DNA from: a virus
DNA length: 37,987 bases
Reading direction: 5' to 3' (one strand)
IMG/VR virus record: IMGVR_UViG_3300020455_000039
Coordinates: 1 to 37,987 of that record
Shown in pieces: positions 1,050 to 37,987 of this stretch. Numbering within the stretch: the stretch's first letter is position 1; every line of letters starts with the position of its first letter. The position numbers and the translations under genes were made by a program. The notes under the pieces were generated by a model that saw only the letters and a program-made list of their open reading frames with translations, ran no database searches and was not told the DNA's origin.

Positions 1050-1057
1050 AATAAATA
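1050..1057 (+). promoter_or_regulatory. Late-promoter-like box, variant AATAAATA
   Basis: AATAAATA followed by G, 8 nt before the ATG at 1066, in the only gap (999-1065) before the enzyme island. It differs from the T4 late consensus TATAAATA at the first base. No Shine-Dalgarno sequence lies between box and ATG. Assigned by similarity to the consensus boxes elsewhere in the window. Confidence 0.45.
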
Positions 1058-1065
1058 GATATATT

Positions 1066-2010
1066 ATGAAACAACCAATTACTGGCGAGTATGTATCTGA
1101 AGGCGGTTCACAACCGATCACAGGTACAGGCGATAAATCAACGAAGTTAGGTTCGGCATATAATAATGCAGAAAAAGGTGTCACCAAGAATGATGGTTCA
1201 GGTGGTACACAAGCAGATTTGAGACAATGGTCTCAGTATATGATGTTAGACGAAAACTCTCGCTATCCTGCAAAAGAAGAATACAACAAAATTTCAACTC
1301 ATTATGAGGCACCGATGGAAGGTGTGTATGAAAAAACTAATGCAAAGCGTTGGCCTTTATTGTATTCAGGTGATCTGTTAAAATATTGTGATCTGATGGT
1401 TCGCAATCACTCAGGATCAAATAATGTCATGTTATTACAATCGTGGTGGTCATCAATGTCGCCAGGTGATATTCTACCCAATCATACACACACTTACACC
1501 TTACCTTGTCGTACAGTATCAGGTATTGTTTACGAACAGCAAGATTATCCATCATCTAATAAACCGAGAATTAATCTTGTAATGAGACCGTTAGGTCAAC
1601 AACCTGTTATTATGGAACCTCGTTTTGGTATGTCTATCTTTATGGAAGGTACAACTGAACACTGGACTCCTCGTTATGAAGGTAAGCGTGTTCGCCGTTG
1701 TCTCGCTTTTGATTATGCAATACTTGATCAATGGCCGTGTGATTGTCATACAAGAAAAAATGGTATCTGTATTCGTTGTGTACATTATAAGATAGATAGA
1801 TTTAACTTTCCTGTATTTGCAACTACGGTGACAGAAAAAGAATTATATTATAAACAAAATCTATTTCAAATATTAGAAGCAGGTTTGTTTAAACCTAATT
1901 CAGAACCAATTGTTTTACATAGTAAGAAGGATCACTATCGAAGAGGGTGGCGTGAAGATGAAGGTCGTAAGAAAGACTTAACAGCAAAAACAGGAGTATT
2001 TCCAAGTTGA
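1066..2010 (+). CDS. Fe(II)/2OG-oxygenase-like jelly-roll protein with C-terminal Cys cluster (paralogue 1)
   Basis: This 314-aa protein has a core resembling the phage 2OG-Fe(II) oxygenase fold: HTH (His140, His142) followed by RTVSGIVY, then EGTTEHWTPRY (His199) and Arg-rich RVRRCLAFDY. It fits the pattern His-x-His, SG-x-x-Y, distal His, Arg seen in that superfamily. After the core comes CDC-x7-C-x2-C (Cys225, 227, 235, 238), which looks like a metal-binding cluster. The first ~50 residues are low-complexity Gly/Thr/Ser. The next gene is a paralogue sharing SGSN/TGSN, SWWS, H-x-HTY, SG, HWT, FDY and C-x2-CVH in the same order. The substrate is unknown. The fold call is an inference from motif order; a non-enzymatic cupin-like virion protein is the alternative. 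Confidence 0.6.
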   Translation: MKQPITGEYVSEGGSQPITGTGDKSTKLGSAYNNAEKGVTKNDGSGGTQADLRQWSQYMMLDENSRYPAKEEYNKISTHYEAPMEGVYEKTNAKRWPLLYSGDLLKYCDLMVRNHSGSNNVMLLQSWWSSMSPGDILPNHTHTYTLPCRTVSGIVYEQQDYPSSNKPRINLVMRPLGQQPVIMEPRFGMSIFMEGTTEHWTPRYEGKRVRRCLAFDYAILDQWPCDCHTRKNGICIRCVHYKIDRFNFPVFATTVTEKELYYKQNLFQILEAGLFKPNSEPIVLHSKKDHYRRGWREDEGRKKDLTAKTGVFPS

Positions 2011-2894
2011 TTGATTACAATAAAATATCAATATATGATTTTGCACCCGTAAAGGATTTAGTATCACCAGATGAAGAACCTAAGCGTGAGGTTGAAAATA
2101 GTTATGACGCCGTAAATGCTCAGGTTCGATACACACATAGAAATTATACAACAAGAGATATAAGACCAAATAAAACTTATAGAAGATATACAAAACAAAC
2201 AGAATTATATTTTGATGACCCTAGTATGAATCATAAAAGCGAGGGTTGGCAAATTATACCAGATGACCACCAAGTACGAACTAATACAGATGGTATTGTA
2301 CAAGAGAAAAATTATAGTATGATTGCACCAAGTGATGAAGGTGGTCCTATGCAAGGTGAAATACGAGATTGGATTGAAGAAAAAATAAAGTTGCATACAG
2401 GCTCTAATGATATATTACATTTAAGAAGTTGGTGGTCTATACTTACAAATGATGTTGCAGTTCCTGTACACTCTCATACATATCAAACAAAACGAAGAAC
2501 CATATCAGGTATTATGTGGACTAAAGGTGATATTTGTCCTCTATATGTTCAAAATCCTGGCGATCAAATACCTGATAAGATAAACAATGTGCCTGGTCGT
2601 TTAGTTATATTTGGTAGTAATACAAATCACTGGACAGATCCTTATCCCCACCGTAATGTAAGGGCAGGTATCTCTTTTGATTATATGATCAATGATCAAG
2701 ATTGTTGCTCTTGCCAAGGTGAACAGTTTTGTTTTCGTTGTGTTCATTTAGTAAAAAATTTGAAAAAGGTAGGTATTCAAAATATCTATTCAGGTGGTAG
2801 CACTACTGTAAAATATGAGATGAAAGATAATAAAATAGAAGAAGCAAAGGGACCTGGACAGTCTCAATTAAAGAACATACCAGAGTATAAATAG
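2007..2894 (+). CDS. Fe(II)/2OG-oxygenase-like jelly-roll protein with C-terminal Cys cluster (paralogue 2)
   Basis: A 295-aa paralogue of the upstream gene. Shared landmarks are TGSNDILHLRSWWS, HSHTY (His155, His157), RTISGIMW, NTNHWTDPY (His208), VRAGISFDY and CC-x-C-x5-C-x2-CVH (Cys233-245). The start is TTG at 2007, overlapping the upstream TGA as TTGA; the next in-frame ATG is residue 74, too far in for the family length, so a coupled TTG start is likely. The ~110-residue N-terminal part does not match its sibling and is Tyr/Arg-rich. The stop codon lies inside a TATAAATA late-promoter box for the next gene. The predicted activity is Fe(II)/2-oxoglutarate-dependent hydroxylation; the substrate is not inferable. 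Confidence 0.6.
   Translation: MIDYNKISIYDFAPVKDLVSPDEEPKREVENSYDAVNAQVRYTHRNYTTRDIRPNKTYRRYTKQTELYFDDPSMNHKSEGWQIIPDDHQVRTNTDGIVQEKNYSMIAPSDEGGPMQGEIRDWIEEKIKLHTGSNDILHLRSWWSILTNDVAVPVHSHTYQTKRRTISGIMWTKGDICPLYVQNPGDQIPDKINNVPGRLVIFGSNTNHWTDPYPHRNVRAGISFDYMINDQDCCSCQGEQFCFRCVHLVKNLKKVGIQNIYSGGSTTVKYEMKDNKIEEAKGPGQSQLKNIPEYK
2886..2893 (+). promoter_or_regulatory. T4-type late promoter box TATAAATA, 5 nt before an ATG
   Basis: A perfect TATAAATA followed by G overlaps the TAG stop of the preceding gene and ends exactly 5 nt before the ATG at 2899. In T4 this element occupies roughly -13 to -6, which would put the transcription start on or within a base or two of the A of the ATG. No Shine-Dalgarno sequence is present. 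Confidence 0.75.
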
Positions 2895-2898
2895 TGGT

Positions 2899-3993
2899 AT
2901 GGCTGATAACGAAGAAACATATATCACACGATACGGAGAAGAACTAGGTAAAGGCTGGTCACAAGCAAAGACAGGAAAGAAAGAGTTAGACGATCACTTT
3001 CAAGATATTTACGATATGGCTGCCTTATTAGATGAGTCTAATAAAAGACCTAACGAACCGTATATAGATAAGACAACACTGGCTGCTGTTGATCCTGTAT
3101 TCTACACAGGTGGTAGTAGAGATGACACAGGCACTTGGGTAGAGGATGGTACTGAAAGTGTCGAAGGTCTAGGAATACGAGAACCTGAAAAAGCAGGTAA
3201 ATGGGAATGGTGGGGTTTAGAAACTGCTGCTGGTCTCAGACAATTATTTACTCATTCAAAATACAAATTACCTGAACATAATAAGGATGATTTACTTGTA
3301 GTTGGTGCAGGTAGAGGTGCGACTGGTTTCTTTTTAGGTGATACAGGCCTTTCTAATAATAATGGTATATTTAAAAATATTACCATGGTTGAAGAGGATG
3401 AAAACTTAGTTAAGTATTCAAATAGTTTAATTACAAAAGCAGGTATTACAAATGTTAAATCTGTACAAAATAGATCAATAGAAGAACCGTCACCAAGAAC
3501 TGTTGGTTATGATGAGATGGTCTCTAAACAATATGATGTAATTATTGCCACACTTCCTTTCTCTAATCAACAAAAAGGTGTTTACTATATTAATCAACAA
3601 GTCAGAACATTAAGAGGCGAAATAGAAAGTGGCAATGGATATCCAGGTGGTGCTTGGCCTTTAGGTTCAGGTAATACTGATTTCTATACAGATATAAAAA
3701 AGTTTGAAGATAAATGTTATGATGAAAATTTTAATAGACATAGTGTTTTATTTACTAAAGCAAATAAACTTTTAAAACCTAATGGACTATTAATAACTGT
3801 TCATCATACACACGCCAGCGATATAGATACTTTTTCAGATATGATATCTCAAGGCAATTTATCTTTAGAATACCATACTATGATTGATAAAGGTATGGGC
3901 GCTCGGTCAATAGCAAGACATTTCTTTTTAAGAAGGGTATTAGTATCTACAACAAATTCAAATATGTGGATAATGGCTTGTAGAAAAAAATAA
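2899..3993 (+). CDS. Class I SAM-dependent methyltransferase
   Basis: A 364-aa protein with a Rossmann methyltransferase core in the C-terminal two thirds. Motif I is LLVVGAGRGATGFF (~132-145), the SAM-ribose acidic strand is ITMVEEDE (Glu165/Glu166), motif IV is YDVIIATLPFSNQ (~212-224, close to the N/D-PPF type of HemK/RlmG-like enzymes), and then KLLKPNGLLITVHH. The ~115-residue N-terminal extension contains LDESNKRPNEPYIDK and WWGLETAAGLRQL, which I do not recognise. The NPPF-like motif suggests methylation of a planar or amide nitrogen, for example in protein, RNA or a small molecule, but the target is unknown. Its own late-type box sits directly upstream. A 14-nt gap precedes the carbamoyltransferase. 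Confidence 0.8.
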   Translation: MADNEETYITRYGEELGKGWSQAKTGKKELDDHFQDIYDMAALLDESNKRPNEPYIDKTTLAAVDPVFYTGGSRDDTGTWVEDGTESVEGLGIREPEKAGKWEWWGLETAAGLRQLFTHSKYKLPEHNKDDLLVVGAGRGATGFFLGDTGLSNNNGIFKNITMVEEDENLVKYSNSLITKAGITNVKSVQNRSIEEPSPRTVGYDEMVSKQYDVIIATLPFSNQQKGVYYINQQVRTLRGEIESGNGYPGGAWPLGSGNTDFYTDIKKFEDKCYDENFNRHSVLFTKANKLLKPNGLLITVHHTHASDIDTFSDMISQGNLSLEYHTMIDKGMGARSIARHFFLRRVLVSTTNSNMWIMACRKK

Positions 3994-4007
3994 ATTATTT
4001 TATTATT

Positions 4008-5549
4008 ATGTTTTTAGGTATGCACATTGGGATCCATGATTCCAACATTTCACTTTATAAGGATGGTAAGACTTACTATGCTAAGTATGAAAGGCATAGT
4101 AATATAAAGCACGGCGCTGGTAATATACAATGGATAGTTAATACTTTAAAGCGTTGGGGGGTAAATGATCCTGCAAATGATATTAAACACATAGTAAGTT
4201 GTTGCTCATTTTATGAAGATCCTGAATGGCAAGAAGGCGAGGTAACCTTCTATGGTGGTTCACCAACAACCGACTATTCTCAACACCATAATATTTTTGA
4301 TAGCACAGTAATTGATCCTCTATTATTGAATAACTTTAAAGTCATTAGAATATTAAAGACACAATGGAAAGCAAAAGTAGAAACAATAGATCATCACGAA
4401 GAACACAATCATAGCACATTTAGGAACTATAAAAACTTTTGTCTCGATGGTAAAGGTACAGGTAATAACTATGCTTTAATTGAAGGTAAAAGACTTCAGA
4501 TAGGTAAAGATGGCTGGCCATTTGGTAGTTATCTTACAAGAATAGGATTACATATGGGTTTGCAACATGGCGCTGAACCCTGGCACCAGATACTTGATTC
4601 TCTAGATATGCCTGGTAAGATTATGGGTCTACAAGCATATGGTAATGTTTCAGAAAAGTATAAAGATTTAAAAGATATTAATTTAATACAGGCTGTTGCT
4701 AGTCAAAAAGATCCTGGGTTTTACAATAAAGAGTGGTTAGACTTTGTAGCAACAGCACACGACACACTTGTTAAAGAAAACTTACAAAGATTTAGAGATA
4801 ACTTTAAACCAGGTGAAACTATAAGTTATACTGGTGGTGTTGCTTTAAATGTAGTTGCAAATGATGAAATTAAAAAAGAGTTTGATATTAAGATACCACC
4901 ACATTGTGGCGATGAAGGATTATCATTAGGTGCATTAATCTATCTAAGTAGAATATATGACTTTGAAGTTAAACTAGATAACTTTCCTTTTTGTCAAGAT
5001 GATGAACTACCTTGGGATGAAGTATGTTCTCATACAATTAAATCTACTGCCGAGGCACTTGCAAGAGGTAAGATAGTAGGTTGGTATCAAGGTCATGGTG
5101 AAATAGGACCTAGAGCATTAGGTAATCGCTCTATACTTATGGACCCTACAATTAAAAATGGTAAACAAAAGATAAATCAAGTTAAGAAACGAGAACCTTG
5201 GAGGCCATTTGGTGCTAGTGTTAAACAAGATCAAGCACATAGATTTTTTGAAATGACTGATAGTCCTTTTATGATGTACAATACAAAAGTTAAATACTCT
5301 GGTATACCAGCGGTTACACATAGAGACGGTACTTGCAGACACAATACGGTAACACCTGAAATGAATCCTGCATACTACGAACTATTAGATCAATTTGAAA
5401 GATTAACTGGTGTGCCTGTATTATTGAATACCTCTTTAAATTTACAAGGTGGTCCCATTTGTGGTAAAAGAGAACAGGCTATAAAATTATTTAACGAAGC
5501 AAAACAATTAGATCAATTAGTGATAGGCAGTAAAACATGGACAAGATGA
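4008..5549 (+). CDS. NodU/CmcH-family carbamoyltransferase
   Basis: 513 aa, close to the usual length of the family, with both domains. The N-terminal Kae1-like (ASKHA) domain has the GMHIGIHDSNISL opening, the metal-binding DHHEEHNHSTF (128-138), LDGKG (147-151), LGLQ-type IMGLQAYGN and SYTGGVALNVVAN. The C-terminal YrdC-like carbamoyltransferase domain has YQGHGEIGPRALGNRSIL, EPWRPFGASV and PVLLNTSLNLQGGPI. Such enzymes make carbamoyl-adenylate from carbamoyl phosphate and ATP and pass the carbamoyl group to a hydroxyl, usually of a sugar or antibiotic (NodU on Nod factor, TobZ on tobramycin). Homologues are known in marine T4-like phages; decorating a surface glycan is the likely role here (inference). 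It overlaps the sulfotransferase gene downstream. Confidence 0.93.
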   Translation: MFLGMHIGIHDSNISLYKDGKTYYAKYERHSNIKHGAGNIQWIVNTLKRWGVNDPANDIKHIVSCCSFYEDPEWQEGEVTFYGGSPTTDYSQHHNIFDSTVIDPLLLNNFKVIRILKTQWKAKVETIDHHEEHNHSTFRNYKNFCLDGKGTGNNYALIEGKRLQIGKDGWPFGSYLTRIGLHMGLQHGAEPWHQILDSLDMPGKIMGLQAYGNVSEKYKDLKDINLIQAVASQKDPGFYNKEWLDFVATAHDTLVKENLQRFRDNFKPGETISYTGGVALNVVANDEIKKEFDIKIPPHCGDEGLSLGALIYLSRIYDFEVKLDNFPFCQDDELPWDEVCSHTIKSTAEALARGKIVGWYQGHGEIGPRALGNRSILMDPTIKNGKQKINQVKKREPWRPFGASVKQDQAHRFFEMTDSPFMMYNTKVKYSGIPAVTHRDGTCRHNTVTPEMNPAYYELLDQFERLTGVPVLLNTSLNLQGGPICGKREQAIKLFNEAKQLDQLVIGSKTWTR

Positions 5550-6289
5550 ATTATCTTATAGTTTCGCCAGTTAGGTCTGGTAGTTCTTGGTTGAATAGTG
5601 TTTTAGAAACACACTATAAACTTTATAATGTAGGTGAAACACTTTGTAAAATTAGTCCCGATTTTGTAGAAGATGATCAGTCAACACTTAAAGCAAAGTA
5701 TCACGACCATCAAGTATCAGATGGTTACAGAAAAAGTATGGTAAAAATGTGGAGTGAAGAACTTAGAAATCTTCCTAGAAATGAACAGATAGATTTTATT
5801 GCTGAGAAAAAACCTATTGTTGCAAAATTCACACCTTGGGATCTATATGAAGATGAGAAACTAGATGGTCGTTTAGGTAATGGATATAGATTAGAAGTAT
5901 TACAAGAAAAGTGGGCACCACTAACAACAATATTTTTATATAGAAAAAATCTAGTAGAACATTTTTTATCTTTCTTAGCATTTCATCAAACAGGTATAGG
6001 TAATGCAACTAGTCAATTTATGCAATATCAAAGACCTGTTTCTGATTTTACTGATAATTGGATTACATATCATAAAATGCATATGGAGTTTATGGATAGG
6101 TGTTATAGAGATCATAAGTTTGACTATACTGTGGCCTATGAAGATTTATTTACTATGGATGAGTTGTGTGGTATACCATTAAAACAATACGAAGGACAGT
6201 TTACTTTTAAACTTAATAAATATACTAGAGAAGAAAAGGATGAGGTAATCAGGAGAACTGGTTATAGTGAAAATTATGAAATACATTGA
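5537..6289 (+). CDS. PAPS-type sulfotransferase family protein
   Basis: 250 aa. The N-terminal strand-loop-helix LIVSPVRSGSSWLNSVL (~7-23) is the 5'-phosphosulfate-binding loop of sulfotransferases. LTTIFLYRKNLVEHFLSFL (~131-149) matches the 3'-phosphate-binding region (Arg followed by a Ser about eight residues on). The protein would move a sulfuryl group from PAPS to a hydroxyl or amine, perhaps on a glycan, downstream of carbamoylation. Two starts are possible: ATG 5537, with AGG about 8 nt upstream, and ATG 5546, which forms ATGA with the upstream stop. The sequence is diverged and the acceptor is not inferable. Some phage members of this fold may bind rather than transfer. Confidence 0.78.
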   Translation: MDKMNYLIVSPVRSGSSWLNSVLETHYKLYNVGETLCKISPDFVEDDQSTLKAKYHDHQVSDGYRKSMVKMWSEELRNLPRNEQIDFIAEKKPIVAKFTPWDLYEDEKLDGRLGNGYRLEVLQEKWAPLTTIFLYRKNLVEHFLSFLAFHQTGIGNATSQFMQYQRPVSDFTDNWITYHKMHMEFMDRCYRDHKFDYTVAYEDLFTMDELCGIPLKQYEGQFTFKLNKYTREEKDEVIRRTGYSENYEIH

Positions 6290-6893
6290 TTTAATAAATG
6301 AGCAAGAAAAGAATGACTCTTGGTTCTTAAAGTTTTGTAAGAACTGGTTATTCATACATGAAGTTAATGCCATGCCACCAGTAGAAGGTAGCAATGGTAA
6401 ATACTTTTATATACTTAGAATATTTCCATTTGGTTTTATACCAATACTCAATCACCTAGTAATTAATATAATCTACAATGATTATACAGACTATCATAAT
6501 CACCCGTGGAGGATGTACACACTTATACTATGGGGCGGATATAAAGAGATTATAATAAACAGACATACAGGAGAAAAGACTATCAAGAATAGGCGGCCTG
6601 GTTCGTTTAATGCAGATACCAAACTAGATGATTTTCATAGAATAGAATTATACAAAGATAAAACCATTTCTATAATGTGGAAAGGTTTTAAATATTTAGA
6701 CCCTAAATCTAGACAGAGGAGTTTTGAATTCTTTGTAGAAGAAACTGGTGAGACTATGCCAAGTTATAAGTACTGGGCAAGAAAAGGTTGTACTCGTCAG
6801 CAACAATTGGATGGTGTTAAGGTTTGGTATCCTAGAAAGTGGTTAGTACCTGGTATAGTTAAAAGGTGGTTTGATTATTACAATGGTAAGTAA
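6267..6893 (+). CDS. Cupin-like protein of a marine phage family (208 aa)
   Basis: A central DYHNHPWRMYTLILWGGYKE (His77, His79, then the GGY turn) and a later DDFHRIEL (His124) give the two-motif His pattern of a cupin/jelly-roll metal site. Small cupin proteins with an HxHPW...ILxGGY signature occur in marine phages without assigned function. A short hydrophobic segment (FPFGFIPILNHLVINIIY, ~53-70) precedes the barrel. The start is GTG 6267, 11 nt after AGGAG (6251-6255); ATG 6276 is an alternative. Last gene of the rightward enzyme island, converging on the leftward operon. It may be an isomerase, dioxygenase or sugar-binding protein. Confidence 0.65.
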   Translation: MKIMKYIDLINEQEKNDSWFLKFCKNWLFIHEVNAMPPVEGSNGKYFYILRIFPFGFIPILNHLVINIIYNDYTDYHNHPWRMYTLILWGGYKEIIINRHTGEKTIKNRRPGSFNADTKLDDFHRIELYKDKTISIMWKGFKYLDPKSRQRSFEFFVEETGETMPSYKYWARKGCTRQQQLDGVKVWYPRKWLVPGIVKRWFDYYNGK

Positions 6894-6917
6894 GGATCAA
6901 TGATCTTATACATATGG

Positions 6918-6953
6918 GTGTAGTTCCCTCAGAATAGGGCTAGATACCTACAC
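6918..6953. terminator. Possible bidirectional hairpin between convergent genes
   Basis: GTGTAG (6918-6923) pairs with CTACAC (6948-6953), and an inner CCCT (6926-6929) pairs with AGGG (6936-6939). It lies just after the rightward stop and over the last codons of the leftward gene ending at 6940. There is no clear U-run on either side, so intrinsic termination is only a possibility suggested by its position. Confidence 0.3.
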
Positions 6954-7647
6954 AGGATATATTACTGGCGATGGATCGTCTCTCGCCTTCACCTTCAAAT
7001 GGATACACTAAATGGTTTATGTGTAGTGGAAACAACACTAATTTTCCTACTACTGGCTGTACCAAACTTGTTCCTGAAAATTTAAATCGTTCTATCTCGT
7101 CTATTGATGTTGTCGGATCAGTCATAAAACATAAATGACCATCTGTAATACCATTTAAATCAAAATCTCTAATAAATCCTTTTGTCTCATACATTTCTCT
7201 ATCAGGACTAATCGTTTCTAATTGTTTTGGCACTTTTGTCCATAATACAGTTGCAAATCCTGGGGCTTGATTAGGTACATTATGACAATGAATAGGATTG
7301 TAATCACCCTCGTATTGATGAACTGACCATATATCTTCAGTCTTTATCACTTTATCAGAATAATTATTTTGGGAAAGAATAGAAAATTCTTGAATATATT
7401 TTTTACTTAATTCGTGAGTTAGGTCTGTATATTCTTTTATGATAGGTTCTTCTTGCTCTAAGTAAAGTTGAAATCCTTTTTTAATAACACCTGCAAGAGT
7501 TGGGGCAGCATTATGGTTAAATTTATACTTCTTATCATCAGAAACTTTATCTAATAAATCATTTAACCCATCAACCATATCCTGAGGGATCATAGTTTCT
7601 AGAAATAGTGCCTTAGGTATAATTTCTTTTTTATATTCTAAATACAT
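6940..7647 (-). CDS. Phage 2OG-Fe(II) oxygenase (putative)
   Basis: 235 aa from the ATG at 7647, chosen because it lies 1 nt after the upstream gene's TAA; an in-frame start at 7686 would overlap that gene by 38 nt. The catalytic region has WSVHQYEGDYNPIHCHN (His120, His122), a beta strand with LWTKVP, GHLCFMTDP, then VVGKLVLFPLHINHLVYP (His212) and ERRSIASN (Arg224). This fits the TIGR02466-type phage oxygenase pattern of H-x-H, the FP strand, distal His and Arg for 2-oxoglutarate. The N-terminal ~100 residues are helical. It is last in the leftward operon, beside a prolyl-hydroxylase-like enzyme. The substrate is unknown. Confidence 0.78.
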   Translation of the reverse strand: MYLEYKKEIIPKALFLETMIPQDMVDGLNDLLDKVSDDKKYKFNHNAAPTLAGVIKKGFQLYLEQEEPIIKEYTDLTHELSKKYIQEFSILSQNNYSDKVIKTEDIWSVHQYEGDYNPIHCHNVPNQAPGFATVLWTKVPKQLETISPDREMYETKGFIRDFDLNGITDGHLCFMTDPTTSIDEIERFKFSGTSLVQPVVGKLVLFPLHINHLVYPFEGEGERRSIASNISCVGI

Positions 7648-7648
7648 T

Positions 7649-8305
7649 TTATCTAAATGGCGGTCCGTTAAACCAAGCAACAGCACTTAATCGTGTGCCT
7701 TTTGTGACCGGTGTCACCTTATGTCTAATAAAAGATGGAAAAACTAATACTGCACCTCGTTCTCTAAATCTCTCATTTGTCCATGTTTGTAATTCGCTTG
7801 TTTGACTATGTTTAGGTAAGTCTGTAAAGTACATATTGCCACCTTCATAATCTTCACTATTTGATAATTGTATTGATACACTTATTTTTCTACACATACC
7901 AATCATACTTTCATCAGGTGTTTCATTGATAGCATATTCTTGTTTATTAGGTGATAAAACTTTACTAGCAAAATGATCAGAGTCACCGTCTATATGCCAA
8001 TCGTAATGTTGATTTAAACCATATTTTGTGAACTGTATATTTTCTATTTGTCTTACATCAAAACGCCAGCCTGCTTCTTCATTTGCCTTATTAACAAAAG
8101 GTCTTACACATTCATAAATATCTTCACCATGTAACCAAGATATACGACTTGCTCTAACTTTATCATCTTTTGAATATGTTTGATTTTCGTTTTGATGAGT
8201 TGCGACTTGCTCTTGTGCTTCAAGACCTCTTTTAACCAAGAAATCACAGCGCTCTTTTGAGAGGCCGTGTTCACCTGTAAATACCCAGCAGATATTTCTT
8301 AACAT
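7649..8305 (-). CDS. PKHD-type 2OG-Fe(II) oxygenase (prolyl-4-hydroxylase-like)
   Basis: 218 aa with the complete facial triad. HYDWHID gives His104 and Asp106, FIRHKVTPV gives His195, and TRLSAVAWFNG supplies the 2-oxoglutarate-binding Arg205. ISVSIQLSNSEDYEGGNMYF is the characteristic central strand-turn of the P4H/PKHD class, and RGAVLVFPSF precedes the distal His. The enzyme should use Fe(II), O2 and 2-oxoglutarate to hydroxylate a substrate, possibly a peptidyl proline or another amino acid. Homologues are common in marine T4-like phages and are usually of unknown target. It starts 3 nt after the small gene upstream. Confidence 0.92.
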   Translation of the reverse strand: MLRNICWVFTGEHGLSKERCDFLVKRGLEAQEQVATHQNENQTYSKDDKVRASRISWLHGEDIYECVRPFVNKANEEAGWRFDVRQIENIQFTKYGLNQHYDWHIDGDSDHFASKVLSPNKQEYAINETPDESMIGMCRKISVSIQLSNSEDYEGGNMYFTDLPKHSQTSELQTWTNERFRERGAVLVFPSFIRHKVTPVTKGTRLSAVAWFNGPPFR

Positions 8306-8525: not shown

Positions 8526-8624
8526 TATAATACATGGTCGGAGTGCCAAGATTTGAACTTGGGACCCCCTGGTCCCAAACCAGGTGCGCTACCAGGCTGC
8601 GCTACACTCCGACTATGTATTATA
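8526..8624. repeat. 20-bp inverted repeat enclosing the tRNA gene
   Basis: The left arm 8526-8545 and right arm 8605-8624 are complementary except at one position (8536 against 8614). Nine base pairs belong to the tRNA itself (GTCGGAGTG) and ten more, TATAATACAT, lie outside it. In the transcript the 5' leader and 3' trailer would pair and extend the acceptor stem. Each arm also contains TATAAT, reading inward towards the tRNA from both sides. The right arm overlaps the stop codon of the gene at 8620. Confidence 0.85.
8535..8611 (-). tRNA. tRNA-Pro(UGG) with encoded CCA
   Basis: On the minus strand the acceptor stem CGGAGTG/CACTCCG pairs in all 7 positions. The D-arm is GCGC...GCGC, the anticodon stem CCTGG/CCAGG encloses the loop TTTGGGA (anticodon TGG), and the T-arm CCAAG-TTCAAAT-CTTGG is perfect. 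The discriminator A and CCA are encoded (8535-8538). Total length is 77 nt. It lies inside the leftward operon between two small protein genes and would read CCN codons. The flanks form an unusual extension of the acceptor stem, described separately. Confidence 0.96.
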
Positions 8625-9793: not shown

Positions 9794-9822
9794 ATTATAC
9801 ACTAGGGAAACTACGAAAACAA
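9794..9822 (-). promoter_or_regulatory. Sigma70-like promoter of the leftward operon
   Basis: On the minus strand, TTGTTT (9822-9817), a 17-nt spacer, and a perfect TATAAT (9799-9794). The expected start point near 9787 gives a leader of about 27 nt carrying AGGAC before the ATG at 9760. Host-type -35/-10 elements suggest early expression, unlike the late-type boxes on the other strand. Confidence 0.7.
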
Positions 9823-9890
9823 GCAAAAAATGGATAAAAACCGAGGGAAAACGGACTTTCTTTCGTTTAGAATCAATAACTTAGAAAAAT

Positions 9891-9949
9891 CGCAGAAAAC
9901 TGCGAAAAATTAGTAAAAATGACGGAAAACTGCGAAAAATTAGTAAAAA
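9891..9949. repeat. 25-bp direct repeat with hairpin in the divergent region
   Basis: Two identical 25-bp copies, 9895-9919 and 9925-9949, start 30 bp apart; each reads GAAAACTGCG followed by AAAAATTAGTAAAAA. The first copy overlaps a perfect hairpin, CGCAG-AAAA-CTGCG (9891-9904). It lies between the leftward sigma70-like promoter and the rightward late box. It could be an operator, a replication or recombination site, or a short duplication. The rest of 9823-9968 holds no gene. Confidence 0.8.
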
Positions 9950-9968
9950 AAGACACTCTGGAAACTCT

Positions 9969-9976
9969 TATAAATA
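9969..9976 (+). promoter_or_regulatory. T4-type late promoter box TATAAATA, 6 nt before an ATG
   Basis: A perfect TATAAATA followed by G ends 6 nt before the ATG at 9983. It opens the long rightward structural block and no other candidate promoter is visible for it. No Shine-Dalgarno sequence lies between the box and the ATG. Confidence 0.75.
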
Positions 9977-10921: not shown

Positions 10922-11344
10922 ATGGCATACAACTACACAAACTCTACGGGAACTAAAAGAAATACTAAAGTATGGAAAGATTTGAATTTAAATTTTACAA
11001 GTCACCCAACAACAAAAGATGTTATAAAACTTGAAGGTGTAAATGCTGTAAAACGAAGTGTAAGAAATCTCATTAATTTAAATCATTATGAGAAACCTTT
11101 TCACCCAGAAATAGGATCAAATGTAAGAGACCTTTTATTTGAACCTATGACACCACTTACTGAAGTCTTTTTGGCTAAGAAGATTGAAGAAGTTTTAATA
11201 AATCACGAACCTAGGGTTAGGTTGGTGAGAGTAAATATTAATTCTAATCCAGATCAAAATAGATATAGAGTTTGGATTGAATTTTATGTTGTTAATCATC
11301 CTGAACCGGTTCAGGTCGAAACATTTTTAGAGAGACTAAGATAA
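10922..11344 (+). CDS. 25: Baseplate wedge protein gp25
   Basis: 140 aa, close to T4 gp25 (132 aa). It contains the family landmarks KRSVRNLINLNHYEKPFHPEIG, VRDLLFEP and the C-terminal strands RVWIEFYVV. This is the gp25/GpW-type (lysozyme-like in name only) fold that joins gp6 to the tail sheath and is shared with TssE of type VI secretion. It is followed after 1 nt by gp6, the conserved T4 order, and preceded by PAAR and a late box. Confidence 0.94.
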   Translation: MAYNYTNSTGTKRNTKVWKDLNLNFTSHPTTKDVIKLEGVNAVKRSVRNLINLNHYEKPFHPEIGSNVRDLLFEPMTPLTEVFLAKKIEEVLINHEPRVRLVRVNINSNPDQNRYRVWIEFYVVNHPEPVQVETFLERLR

Positions 11345-18348: not shown

Positions 18349-19887
18349 ATGGCAGAGAAAGAGTACATAGTCACCCTTAAAAAAGGTGTAAATGCTGACG
18401 AGTTCAATTCAGAGATGACAGCCAGTTCTGGCTCAGGAAATATTCCTAATCGTACAGTAGATGTCGCAAACGCAAGAACAAAATCAATCAGAAATACACA
18501 TTATGGTTTAGAAGAATCTGAAGCACAGGATCTTAAAAATGATCCTAGAGTAGAAGATGTTGAAGTTCCACCAGATCAAATTCCTAATGCTGTAATTGGC
18601 CACGATTCTACAAGAACAGGTACATACAATAAAACAACTAGTAGCACAGGTACATTTCAAAACTGGGGATTAATAAGATGTCAAAATCAAACAAATAATT
18701 ACGGTACAGGAACAACAACAAGTGATAATTATAACTTTACAGCAGACGGCACTGGTGTAGATTTCATAGTTCAAGATAGTGGTATTCAAACAGATCATCC
18801 TGAATTTCAAGATAGTGGTGGTTCTAATAGATGGTCAACTTTAAACTGGTATACTGCTTCAGGTGTTTCAGGATCTCAAAATGCAAATCACGATAGAGAC
18901 TATGATGGTCACGGTACTCATTGTGCTGGTATTGCCGTTGGTAAAACTTTTGGTCACGCTCAAGGGGCAAAAATATATGGACAAAAACTTTCAGGTTTAG
19001 AAGGAACAGGAGATACTGGTACAGGTATTTCTATTACAGACGCCTTTGATTGTATAAAAGGTTGGCATAATGCTAAGTCGGGTGCAAGTGCAGGTAGACC
19101 AACAGTCGTAAATATGTCCTGGGGATATAGTACAACTCATAATGATTTACCCTCAGCATTAAATTATCAAGGTGCTGCTAAATCAGGAACTGACATAGAT
19201 AGTTTAGCAGAATTAAGAACATTTAAATATACTGCTTTTCCAGGTTCCGCACCATACAAAACACCTTTACGAGTTGCTTCGGTTGATGCTGATATAGATG
19301 AAATGATAGACGCAGGTATACATATTTGTCATTCTGCTGGTAATAATTATTATGCTCACGATTTAACAACAGGTTCAGATTACAATAACACTTATACAAT
19401 AGGTGCTGGTACAGGATATTATAATAGAGGTTCTTCTCCATATTCAGTAAATGCTTTTAATGTGGGAAATATTGATAGTACTGCTTATAGTTCAACTCAA
19501 GATCAAAAAGCGGAAAATTCAACTAACGGACCTGCGGTAGATATCTATGCCCCAGGTACTTATGTTATGAGTGCTTGTAGTACGACAAATGTTAAAAGTG
19601 GTCAAAACTATTATGCTGATTCTAATTTTAAACAAGTTAATATATCAGGTACTAGTATGTCAGGCCCTCAGGTTGCAGGTATTTTATGTTTATTATTATC
19701 TGTAAACCCGCAACTAACACCTGCAGAATTAAAGACATTAGTACATAGTTTATGCACAACTGATAAAATCTATGATCCCGCAGATGGCAACTTTGCAAAC
19801 TGGAGAAATTTAAACCCAGGTTCTACACCTAAAAGATTTTTGTTCAATCCTTATACAGGTGCGAATGTACTAACAATAACTACTTAA
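18349..19887 (+). CDS. Subtilisin-like serine protease (S8) in the structural block
   Basis: 512 aa with the full S8 catalytic set: Asp143 (FIVQDSGIQTDHPEF), His188 (DGHGTHCAGIAVG), oxyanion Asn332 (HICHSAGNN) and Ser436 (ISGTSMSGPQVAG). The first ~80 residues (EYIVTLKKGVNADEFNSEM... DPRVEDVEVPPDQ) look like an I9-type inhibitor propeptide, normally removed on activation. No signal peptide is visible. It lies between an S74 fibre and the gp8-like gene, with a weak late box. It is either a virion component that cuts host surface protein or a maturation protease for fibres. It is not the T4 prohead protease gp21, which is an unrelated fold. Confidence 0.92.
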   Translation: MAEKEYIVTLKKGVNADEFNSEMTASSGSGNIPNRTVDVANARTKSIRNTHYGLEESEAQDLKNDPRVEDVEVPPDQIPNAVIGHDSTRTGTYNKTTSSTGTFQNWGLIRCQNQTNNYGTGTTTSDNYNFTADGTGVDFIVQDSGIQTDHPEFQDSGGSNRWSTLNWYTASGVSGSQNANHDRDYDGHGTHCAGIAVGKTFGHAQGAKIYGQKLSGLEGTGDTGTGISITDAFDCIKGWHNAKSGASAGRPTVVNMSWGYSTTHNDLPSALNYQGAAKSGTDIDSLAELRTFKYTAFPGSAPYKTPLRVASVDADIDEMIDAGIHICHSAGNNYYAHDLTTGSDYNNTYTIGAGTGYYNRGSSPYSVNAFNVGNIDSTAYSSTQDQKAENSTNGPAVDIYAPGTYVMSACSTTNVKSGQNYYADSNFKQVNISGTSMSGPQVAGILCLLLSVNPQLTPAELKTLVHSLCTTDKIYDPADGNFANWRNLNPGSTPKRFLFNPYTGANVLTITT

Positions 19888-36728: not shown

Positions 36729-37503
36729 AAAACTAGATGTAAACCAAGAATCTACAATCAATGAACCTTTACTAGAAACAACAATAGAAAAGGCAACTGG
36801 TGGTAATGTTAGAACAACTGGCACTAGATTAGTACAAAAAAATATTGTTGTTAGATGTTTACCTAACATATATTATAATACTATTGCTGAAGGTGAGGGG
36901 CCTATATTCAATAATAGTGCTGTACCTGAGTATTGTAGAACTAATTTATCTGTACAAGTAATATGGAATAATGGTATTAGTTGGACATTAGATAATGATG
37001 AAACTATTACTTTAAGACCTGGTTCTTATCAAACTTTGAATGATAAAAATAATTTTGTTATTAAGTATGGAGATGAAATACAAAAAACAAATCAAGGCAC
37101 GCTTTTAGATAATATTACCTATGATGGTGAAGAAATATATTTTCCAGGTGAATCACAATACACACAAAAAGACGCAAACTTTAATGGTGGATTTTATTTC
37201 TTTCTAGGAATTATTCACGATATTACTTATTCAGCACAGTCTTGGTATCCTAGAATTGTAAATCATTATACCAATGTAGTAGATCGTACTGTTAAAATCG
37301 TTAAAGATGATAATGCTATACAACATTTTCTATTTGTTACCTCAGGAACTTTAAATGTGAGTGAAGGACTGAAACAAAGAAACTTTAACAAAGAGTCTTG
37401 CCTTTTATTGCAAAAAAATAAAGAATACACACTATCACAAGTTGGTGATGAAATGATGAATGTTTATGAATTTAAATCTGTTAAAAAAGCCACTACTGAC
37501 TAA
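36715..37503 (+). CDS. Hypothetical protein with two possible jelly-roll halves (262 aa)
   Basis: Starts 14 nt inside the preceding gene. The N-terminal half (~45-130) is beta-rich with WNNGISWTLDNDETITLRPG, a typical jelly-roll turn. The C-terminal half (~175-262) has HYTNVVDRTVKIVKDDN, HFLFVTSGTLNVSEG and LLQKNKEYTLSQVGDE, resembling the cupin-like end of the 36396 protein. Possibly a bicupin. It has no signal peptide. Its 3' end overlaps the desaturase start by 38 nt. The function is unknown; it could serve the fibres or the lipid and surface modification genes downstream. Confidence 0.6.
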   Translation: MPLYKKLDVNQESTINEPLLETTIEKATGGNVRTTGTRLVQKNIVVRCLPNIYYNTIAEGEGPIFNNSAVPEYCRTNLSVQVIWNNGISWTLDNDETITLRPGSYQTLNDKNNFVIKYGDEIQKTNQGTLLDNITYDGEEIYFPGESQYTQKDANFNGGFYFFLGIIHDITYSAQSWYPRIVNHYTNVVDRTVKIVKDDNAIQHFLFVTSGTLNVSEGLKQRNFNKESCLLLQKNKEYTLSQVGDEMMNVYEFKSVKKATTD

Positions 37504-37987
37504 AAGAGGCCTGAATAATGTAAAACTAGCAGGTCGAGAAGCGTGGGAGTCTACCGTTTTTCAACTTTCAATTTATAGTCTTGCAATTCTTTTTTTAATA
37601 TTTTATCCAGTCAATTACATTTTAGCACCATTTACTTCTATTTCAGTTTCACTTGTTATGGGATTTGCGATAGGTATATTTTTACATAGAGGTTTTGTAC
37701 ATAAACAGTTTCAAACTTATTCATTCTTACAAAAACCTGCCTTGTTTATTGCAAGTATGGTAATGTTTACTACATCTATTCGTTGGTCTTTTGCTCATAT
37801 GTATCATCACAAATTTGTTGATACAGACCAAGACCCACACAATCCTATGAGTATAGGTCTGATAGGTTCTGCATTTCCTATCTTCTGGAATAAATTTCCT
37901 GTATCAATGCGAGATATGTTAAGACTTAAAGGTCATTTCAAAGACCCATATCATAAGTTTATGGAAAAGTATTTTGCTTTTGTAGTT
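37466..37987 (+). CDS. Fatty acid desaturase, 3' truncated by the window
   Basis: The frame opens at ATG 37466 and runs through the last base (174 codons). Hydrophobic segments lie at ~32-56 and ~57-73, followed by His box 1 HRGFVH (His74, His79), another hydrophobic segment PALFIASMVMFTTSIRW, and His box 2 HMYHHKFVDTDQDPHNP (His111, 114, 115). H-x4-H and H-x2-HH, with the D-T-D-x-D-P-H-N tail, are the di-iron signature of membrane delta-9-type acyl desaturases; the third box should lie beyond the window. The enzyme would desaturate host membrane acyl chains. The 38-nt overlap with the previous gene is long but no better start is seen downstream. Confidence 0.9.
   Translation, partial: MNLNLLKKPLLTKRGLNNVKLAGREAWESTVFQLSIYSLAILFLIFYPVNYILAPFTSISVSLVMGFAIGIFLHRGFVHKQFQTYSFLQKPALFIASMVMFTTSIRWSFAHMYHHKFVDTDQDPHNPMSIGLIGSAFPIFWNKFPVSMRDMLRLKGHFKDPYHKFMEKYFAFVV

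Follow-up and report, generated by a model that had tools for sequence, protein, structure and literature searches.

The IMG/VR virus record IMGVR_UViG_3300020455_000039, analysed here over its full 37,987 bases and called the window, carries eight adjoining enzyme genes (A-H) in a stretch of T4-like phage DNA. Our comparison with related phages supports the view that four of them, encoding an oxygenase-like protein (B), a methyltransferase (C), an O-carbamoyltransferase (D) and a sulfotransferase (E), form one functional unit, together with a second oxygenase-like gene (A) when it is present. The reading that we consider likeliest, with a probability of roughly one in three, is that B-C-D-E, with optional A and with extra enzymes in relatives, constitute a late tailoring operon that acts on the phage's own virion. 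The record itself is probably a genome fragment. Its gp6 protein is nearest to those of the Pelagibacter phages Mosig and HTVC008M (~53%) and of Methylophilales phage Melnitz (52%), all T4-like Kyanoviridae, and the enzyme block occupies the interval between the gp5 C-terminus and the PAAR-gp25-gp6 genes. All eight reading frames are open, A-F on the plus strand and G and H on the minus strand. A sequence-only reading of the window had named the enzyme classes of this interval in outline, and reading frames, Pfam and PHROGs matches, motifs and folds now confirm them.

Order, distribution and exchange of the gene block

The presence of so many enzyme genes side by side raises the question as to whether they serve one pathway, as the sequence-only reading had proposed for the entire set. 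Seven further contigs of the same group (L002, L003, L004, L005, L006, L008 and L013) were retrieved from IMG/VR with several cassette proteins as queries, and 80 loci were fetched through the adjoining PAAR gene in order to view the slot without the cassette. B to F are spanned by five phages (the window, L002, L003, L004 and L005), and their order is identical in all five. D-E-F are also found on L006, L008 and L013, and the D/E and E/F reading frames overlap in every case. Since this gene order and these overlaps recur on several contigs, the block is not a chance arrangement. All homologues of B and C that IMG/VR yielded lie in the cassette. L039, L041 and L042 retain o379 on the left and o8309 and o8620 on the right, the latter two accompanied by a tRNA-Pro gene in L041 and L042, and lack all of A-H, with a gene of 111 amino acids in between. 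In the more distant L086, L089 and L095 gp5 leads almost directly to PAAR. Co-occurrence in related phages, which the sequence-only reading had expected of a single pathway, is thus borne out for B to F. Relatives also carry additional enzymes: a 2-oxoglutarate (2OG)-type paralogue and an Asp/Asn beta-hydroxylase-like protein (PF05118) in L004, two tandem sulfotransferases in L008 and a methyltransferase-like gene in L003.

The pairwise identities of B, C, D and E, which are descriptive values given the small sample, correlate with each other at r 0.94-0.99, with those of F at ~0 and with those of the backbone protein gp6 at 0.4-0.7. Together with the collinearity, the exclusive location of B and C and the empty loci, this co-variation supports one functional unit for B-E. 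At the DNA level, the window and L005 are 93-98% identical over A-E, compared with 69-83% just to the left, 78% in F and 80-95% further right. L002, by comparison, is 59-81% identical to the window over B-E and has no A, though its backbone is equally close (gp6 92%, vs. 90% for L005). The simplest reading of the identity peak shared with L005, set against L002, is that A/B-E have passed from phage to phage as one block, its boundaries lying before A and near the end of E.

Among 50,697 phage records we found no match to the cassette DNA, and none to proteins A, B, C, E and F, so that, within the records searched, the set occurs in uncultured phages only. C gave no match in bacterial and archaeal genomes in a pattern-limited search, which is weak evidence, and no description of phage carbamoyl- plus sulfotransferase sets was found in the open-access literature. 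The component families are known; their linked, exchanged combination was found in no cultured phage or paper searched.

Chemistry predicted for the individual enzymes

The strongest family call of the block is that of gene D (4008-5549, plus strand), which exceeds both gathering scores (Carbam_trans_N, 39.8 bits for a cut-off of 24; Carbam_trans_C, 186.8 bits for a cut-off of 27, E 3e-55) and matches phrog_1601 at 5e-124. The protein aligns over the active site with TobZ, 7xb6 and other O-carbamoyltransferases, and H129, H130, H133 and D302 (an HHxxH-type metal site) as well as the GPRALGNR and REPWRPF motifs are invariant in five proteins. These data support, at the family level, a NodU/CmcH/TobZ-type O-carbamoyltransferase, for which carbamoylation of a hydroxyl acceptor is predicted.

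Gene E (5537-6289, plus strand), whose frame overlaps D by 13 nucleotides, is a putative sulfotransferase of the type that uses 3'-phosphoadenosine-5'-phosphosulfate (PAPS). Its match to Sulfotransfer_3 (PF13469) stays below the cut-off of 27 (20.7 bits, E 5e-4), with 6/7 members matching at E < 0.1, and this weak call is backed by motifs and an Stf0-like fold. The 5'-phosphosulfate-binding motif SPVRSGSSWL and a 3'-phosphate-binding pair R136...S145, nine apart, are recognisable, and R13, G15, S16, W18, R136 and S145 are invariant in seven proteins. In Foldseek, the sole four matches of the model (mean predicted local distance difference test score, pLDDT, 70) at E < 1e-3 are all sulfotransferases, headed by the trehalose sulfotransferase Stf0 (1tex) and including the tyrosylprotein sulfotransferase 8w5z. 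Profiles of B, E and F searched against PDB sequences yielded nothing useful.

Gene C (2899-3993, plus strand) encodes a class I S-adenosylmethionine methyltransferase with a TLPF/TPPY motif; its weak Pfam matches (Methyltransf_31/MTS) are backed by a class I methyltransferase fold with a GxGxG-type motif. Motifs of the TPPY/TLPF type are seen in methyltransferases whose targets are planar amide or amino nitrogens. The sole PDB sequence match of C is the carbamoyl N-methyltransferase Asc-Orf2 (9l4q), at E 0.6, which is also its nearest solved structure by a narrow margin. This suggests, as a lead, that C may be a carbamoyl N-methyltransferase, which would be chemically sensible beside a carbamoyltransferase.

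Genes A (1066-2010) and B (2007-2894), both on the plus strand, are paralogues that resemble 2OG-FeII_Oxy_5 with 25.4 and 17.4 bits, respectively, both below the Pfam gathering cut-off of 27; B also matches phrog_81 (2e-9). The L004 copy lies above the cut-off (32.5 bits), and 7/7 A/B-type members match at E < 0.1. A ends in a C-terminal CxC/CxxC motif. B is a core member of the cassette and A an optional one, found in the window and L005 only, so that the tandem pair described by the sequence-only reading is real in these two phages and not a general feature; in L004 the second copy is a different one. Gene F (6267-6893, plus strand) overlaps the end of E and encodes a cupin-like protein with no Pfam match and a match to phrog_4786, 'cysteine dioxygenase' (1e-11). 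F is highly conserved (83-99%), reaching 97-99% identity between phages whose gp6 proteins are only ~71% identical, and is either often exchanged or strongly constrained. Overall, the sulfate, carbamoyl, methyl and hydroxyl chemistry that had been proposed for the block is supported at the family level.

Promoters, the minus-strand oxygenases and neighbouring genes

A late promoter, TATAAATAG, is located at 2886-2894 on the plus strand, overlapping the stop codon of B and ending 4 nucleotides before the ATG of C, and is kept in 5/5 phages despite varying flanking sequence. A near-late promoter, AATAAATA (1050-1057, plus strand), has one mismatch to TATAAATA, precedes A by 8 nucleotides and is the same in L005. 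For comparison, the authors describing Melnitz took 5'-TATAAAT-3' as a T4-like late signal (PMC9004378). Exact copies of TATAAATA number 8 on the plus strand of the window and 0 on the minus strand. With one mismatch allowed, TATAAATA is no commoner than chance, and sigma-70-like sites across the block are no commoner than in shuffles; because these counts are at chance level, we relied on conserved promoter sites alone. TATAAATAG stands 4-5 nucleotides before an ATG at 2886, 9969 and 10909, an arrangement that would give nearly leaderless late mRNAs.

G (6940-7686) and H (7649-8305), both on the minus strand, are a different matter. G is an optional 2OG-FeII_Oxy_5 protein of the HxH type (37.8 bits, above the cut-off) that is not present in L003 and L008. 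H is a PKHD/2OG-FeII_Oxy_3 protein (PF13640, 45.7 bits for a cut-off of 27) with the canonical HxD (HID ... RHKVTP); it is found wherever the cassette is, and its divergence tracks that of gp6 (r 0.88). H and G close a minus-strand operon whose sigma-70-like promoter, TTGTTT-N17-TATAAT, lies at 9794-9822 (minus strand), with the same hexamers in L002 and L005 and TAAAAT in L004. From the late promoter motifs and this conserved sigma-70-like promoter, A-F look late and G/H early. Their strand, their promoter and the tracking of gp6 by H indicate that G and H are probably a separate unit, with predicted early timing, outside the B-E pathway. The sequence-only reading had named different timing of the two halves as an argument against a single pathway; such a split is what sequence predicts for G/H, while A-F go with the late genes, and the proposed pathway consequently shrinks to B-E with A where present.

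Several neighbouring features are worth recording. Noncoding DNA at 9830-9970, upstream of the minus-strand operon, contains repeated AAACTGCGAAAAATTAGTAAAAA, with similar sequence in L002, L004 and L005. A tRNA-Pro(tgg) gene (8535-8611, minus strand), the sole match of an Rfam scan, adjoins the oxygenases; it is shared with the empty sites L041 and L042 and with the corresponding slot of Pelagibacter phage Mosig, and is not found in L002, L004, L005, L008 and L013. The gp25 gene (10922-11344) encodes 140 amino acids in the window, and relatives extend the same frame by ~258 residues at the N-terminus (L002:16777-17973, L004:11805-13004 and L005:11225-12421). Amid the baseplate and tail genes, a subtilase (18349-19887, plus strand; PF00082, E 2.8e-31) is flanked by gp8 and by a gp10-like protein that carries an endosialidase chaperone domain. 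Finally, the fatty-acid desaturase noted earlier at the right edge (37460-37987, plus strand; PF00487, E 3e-5; His boxes HRGFVH and HMYHH) is real, though cut by the window end; located beyond the tail genes, 29 kb away and with no linkage to the block, it was rejected as a pathway member.

Possible target of the proposed pathway and relation to known systems

Gene families, gene order, the co-variation of B-E and the motif-defined late promoter were computed; from these we infer a reaction order, carbamoyl N-methylation by C, the timing of expression and the virion as target. In this scheme, A/B would create or prepare a hydroxyl group, and D would move carbamoyl from carbamoyl phosphate, via carbamoyl-adenylate, onto a hydroxyl. 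C would then methylate the carbamoyl nitrogen (OH -> O-carbamoyl -> N-methylcarbamoyl), and E would use PAPS to sulfate either the same group or a different hydroxyl. The cupin-like F may act beside or after the B-E enzymes, and G/H would be a separate, probably early hydroxylase pair merely adjoining the operon. The likeliest acceptor would be a component of the phage particle, such as a protein of the tail, baseplate or fibres, or a sugar attached to it. tRNA or the ribosome was also considered as a target of the methyltransferase. We favour the virion because the operon would be read with the late structural genes and because relatives of D lie near head genes in two cyanophages. A bolder version, in which a phage group attaches O-(N-methyl)carbamoyl and sulfate to its own tails or fibres through a dedicated late operon with swapped alleles, giving variable virion coats, seems to us rather unlikely.

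A number of points weigh against a late, virion-directed pathway. The canonical HxD/E...H facial triad is not present in A/B, which have an invariant HxH...H...R instead, so that hydroxylation at an active Fe/2OG site is a candidate activity at most; HxH is likewise seen in PF13759 members of the cultured phages HTVC008M and S-CAM1. For C, 9l4q comes first in both Foldseek and VIA-align, with a Z score (16.5 vs. 16.2 for the next) that amounts to a tie, and the structure model is poor (pLDDT 50). The sample comprises 5-7 phages, L006 is nearly the same as L002, and the pairs behind the correlations are not independent. F does not share the history of B-E although it overlaps E. Related phages use the gp5-gp25 interval as a general slot for cargo, so a position among late genes need not mean a virion target. 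Relatives of D in cyanophages are also located near psbA.

Could the same enzymes instead decorate the host envelope, for example a lipopolysaccharide sugar or lipid A, and so block superinfection or keep progeny from adsorbing to debris? Glycans are classically decorated with carbamoyl and sulfate, as in Nod factors, and the nearest fold to E is that of Stf0, a trehalose sulfotransferase. The Mosig slot holds UDP-2,3-diacylglucosamine hydrolase-like and Asp/Arg-hydroxylase-like genes, and the authors of an eLife study report that, on unmodified contigs, genes such as glycosyltransferases lie beside the carbamoyltransferases (PMC8670742). However, expression from late promoter motifs would be late for superinfection exclusion, and Pfam and PHROGs identify no glycosyltransferase or lipid gene in the cassette. 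We rate an envelope target as somewhat less likely than the virion, yet as a strong rival.

Another rival, about as likely as the envelope reading, is that a hypervariable slot has collected these genes as unconnected cargo, with no common substrate. In HTVC008M and Mosig the gp5-gp25 slot has the same position and also holds 2OG oxygenases, along with a methyltransferase in HTVC008M and tRNA-Pro in Mosig; the cargo is otherwise different and unrelated, with no carbamoyltransferase or sulfotransferase annotated. A, G and the extra enzymes are present in some phages and not in others, F and H have histories of their own, cyanophage relatives of D do without C and E partners, and close linkage alone could yield co-exchange. 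On the other hand, B-C-D-E are never apart in the sampled phages, vary and are exchanged jointly, and B and C were not found elsewhere.

Tailoring of a small diffusible molecule (a nucleotide, amino acid or peptide metabolite) that aids the infected cell or harms competitors appears improbable. TobZ, GdmN, novobiocin carbamoyltransferase and Asc-Orf2 tailor secondary metabolites, the first three belonging to D's closest relatives of solved structure and the last being nearest to C; yet the cassette has no scaffold builder (synthase, non-ribosomal peptide synthetase, polyketide synthase or glycosyltransferase), and late expression would leave a metabolite little time. Carbamoylation by D of 5-hydroxymethylcytosine (5hmC) in phage DNA, with A/B or C adding further base modifications, is very improbable, even though phage-encoded carbamoyltransferases of the D superfamily do this (PMC8670742), since D has W359, G372 and R374 at TobZ positions 408, 421 and 423, which best separate DNA-cytosine carbamoyltransferases from the rest (eLife 2021, PMC8670742), with W/G/R in 6/6 D proteins against I/C/T in the assayed DNA enzyme; a sulfotransferase and late expression also fit poorly, and no thymidylate-synthase/hydroxymethylase neighbour was seen among the genes examined, the window and its relatives being genome fragments.

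Carbamoyltransferases, sulfotransferases and 2OG oxygenases are scattered across marine phage genomes without an assigned role, and for the sulfotransferases of marine phages the authors of an OM43-phage study state that the role is not known (PMC10580990). Here, several of them are joined in an operon and share a single history, and the question thereby becomes testable through joint expression and through a product read by its mass shift. If the virion is indeed the target, phage surface chemistry would gain a new layer, a kind of particle modification not described before.

How does the cassette relate to known systems? The 5hmC carbamoyltransferase found by MetaGPA (eLife 2021, PMC8670742) is, like D, a phage-encoded PF16861/PF02543 protein, with different diagnostic residues. 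The closest phage counterparts of D are cyanophage 'Nol-like' carbamoyltransferases (phrog_1601), which belong to the same PHROG and share ~37-38% identity over the full length. In Synechococcus phage ACG-2014d and in S-SSM4 they lie in the late structural region, between the major head protein and gp3 (tail completion genes), and others lie near psbA or near 2OG oxygenases; they are single genes, without the methyltransferase, sulfotransferase and cupin partners of D. Asc-Orf2 (9l4q) shares the class I methyltransferase fold with C and acts, as C would, beside a carbamoyltransferase, at 15% identity to C, which has ~100 extra N-terminal residues and whose activity is predicted only. In Nod-factor decoration, NodU/NolO transfer carbamoyl, NodH/NoeE sulfate and NodS/NoeI methyl groups. 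The cassette is without the chitooligosaccharide backbone enzymes of that system, and D is a partial match to the NodU model (106.6 bits for a cut-off of 1000), but the set of group transfers is the same.

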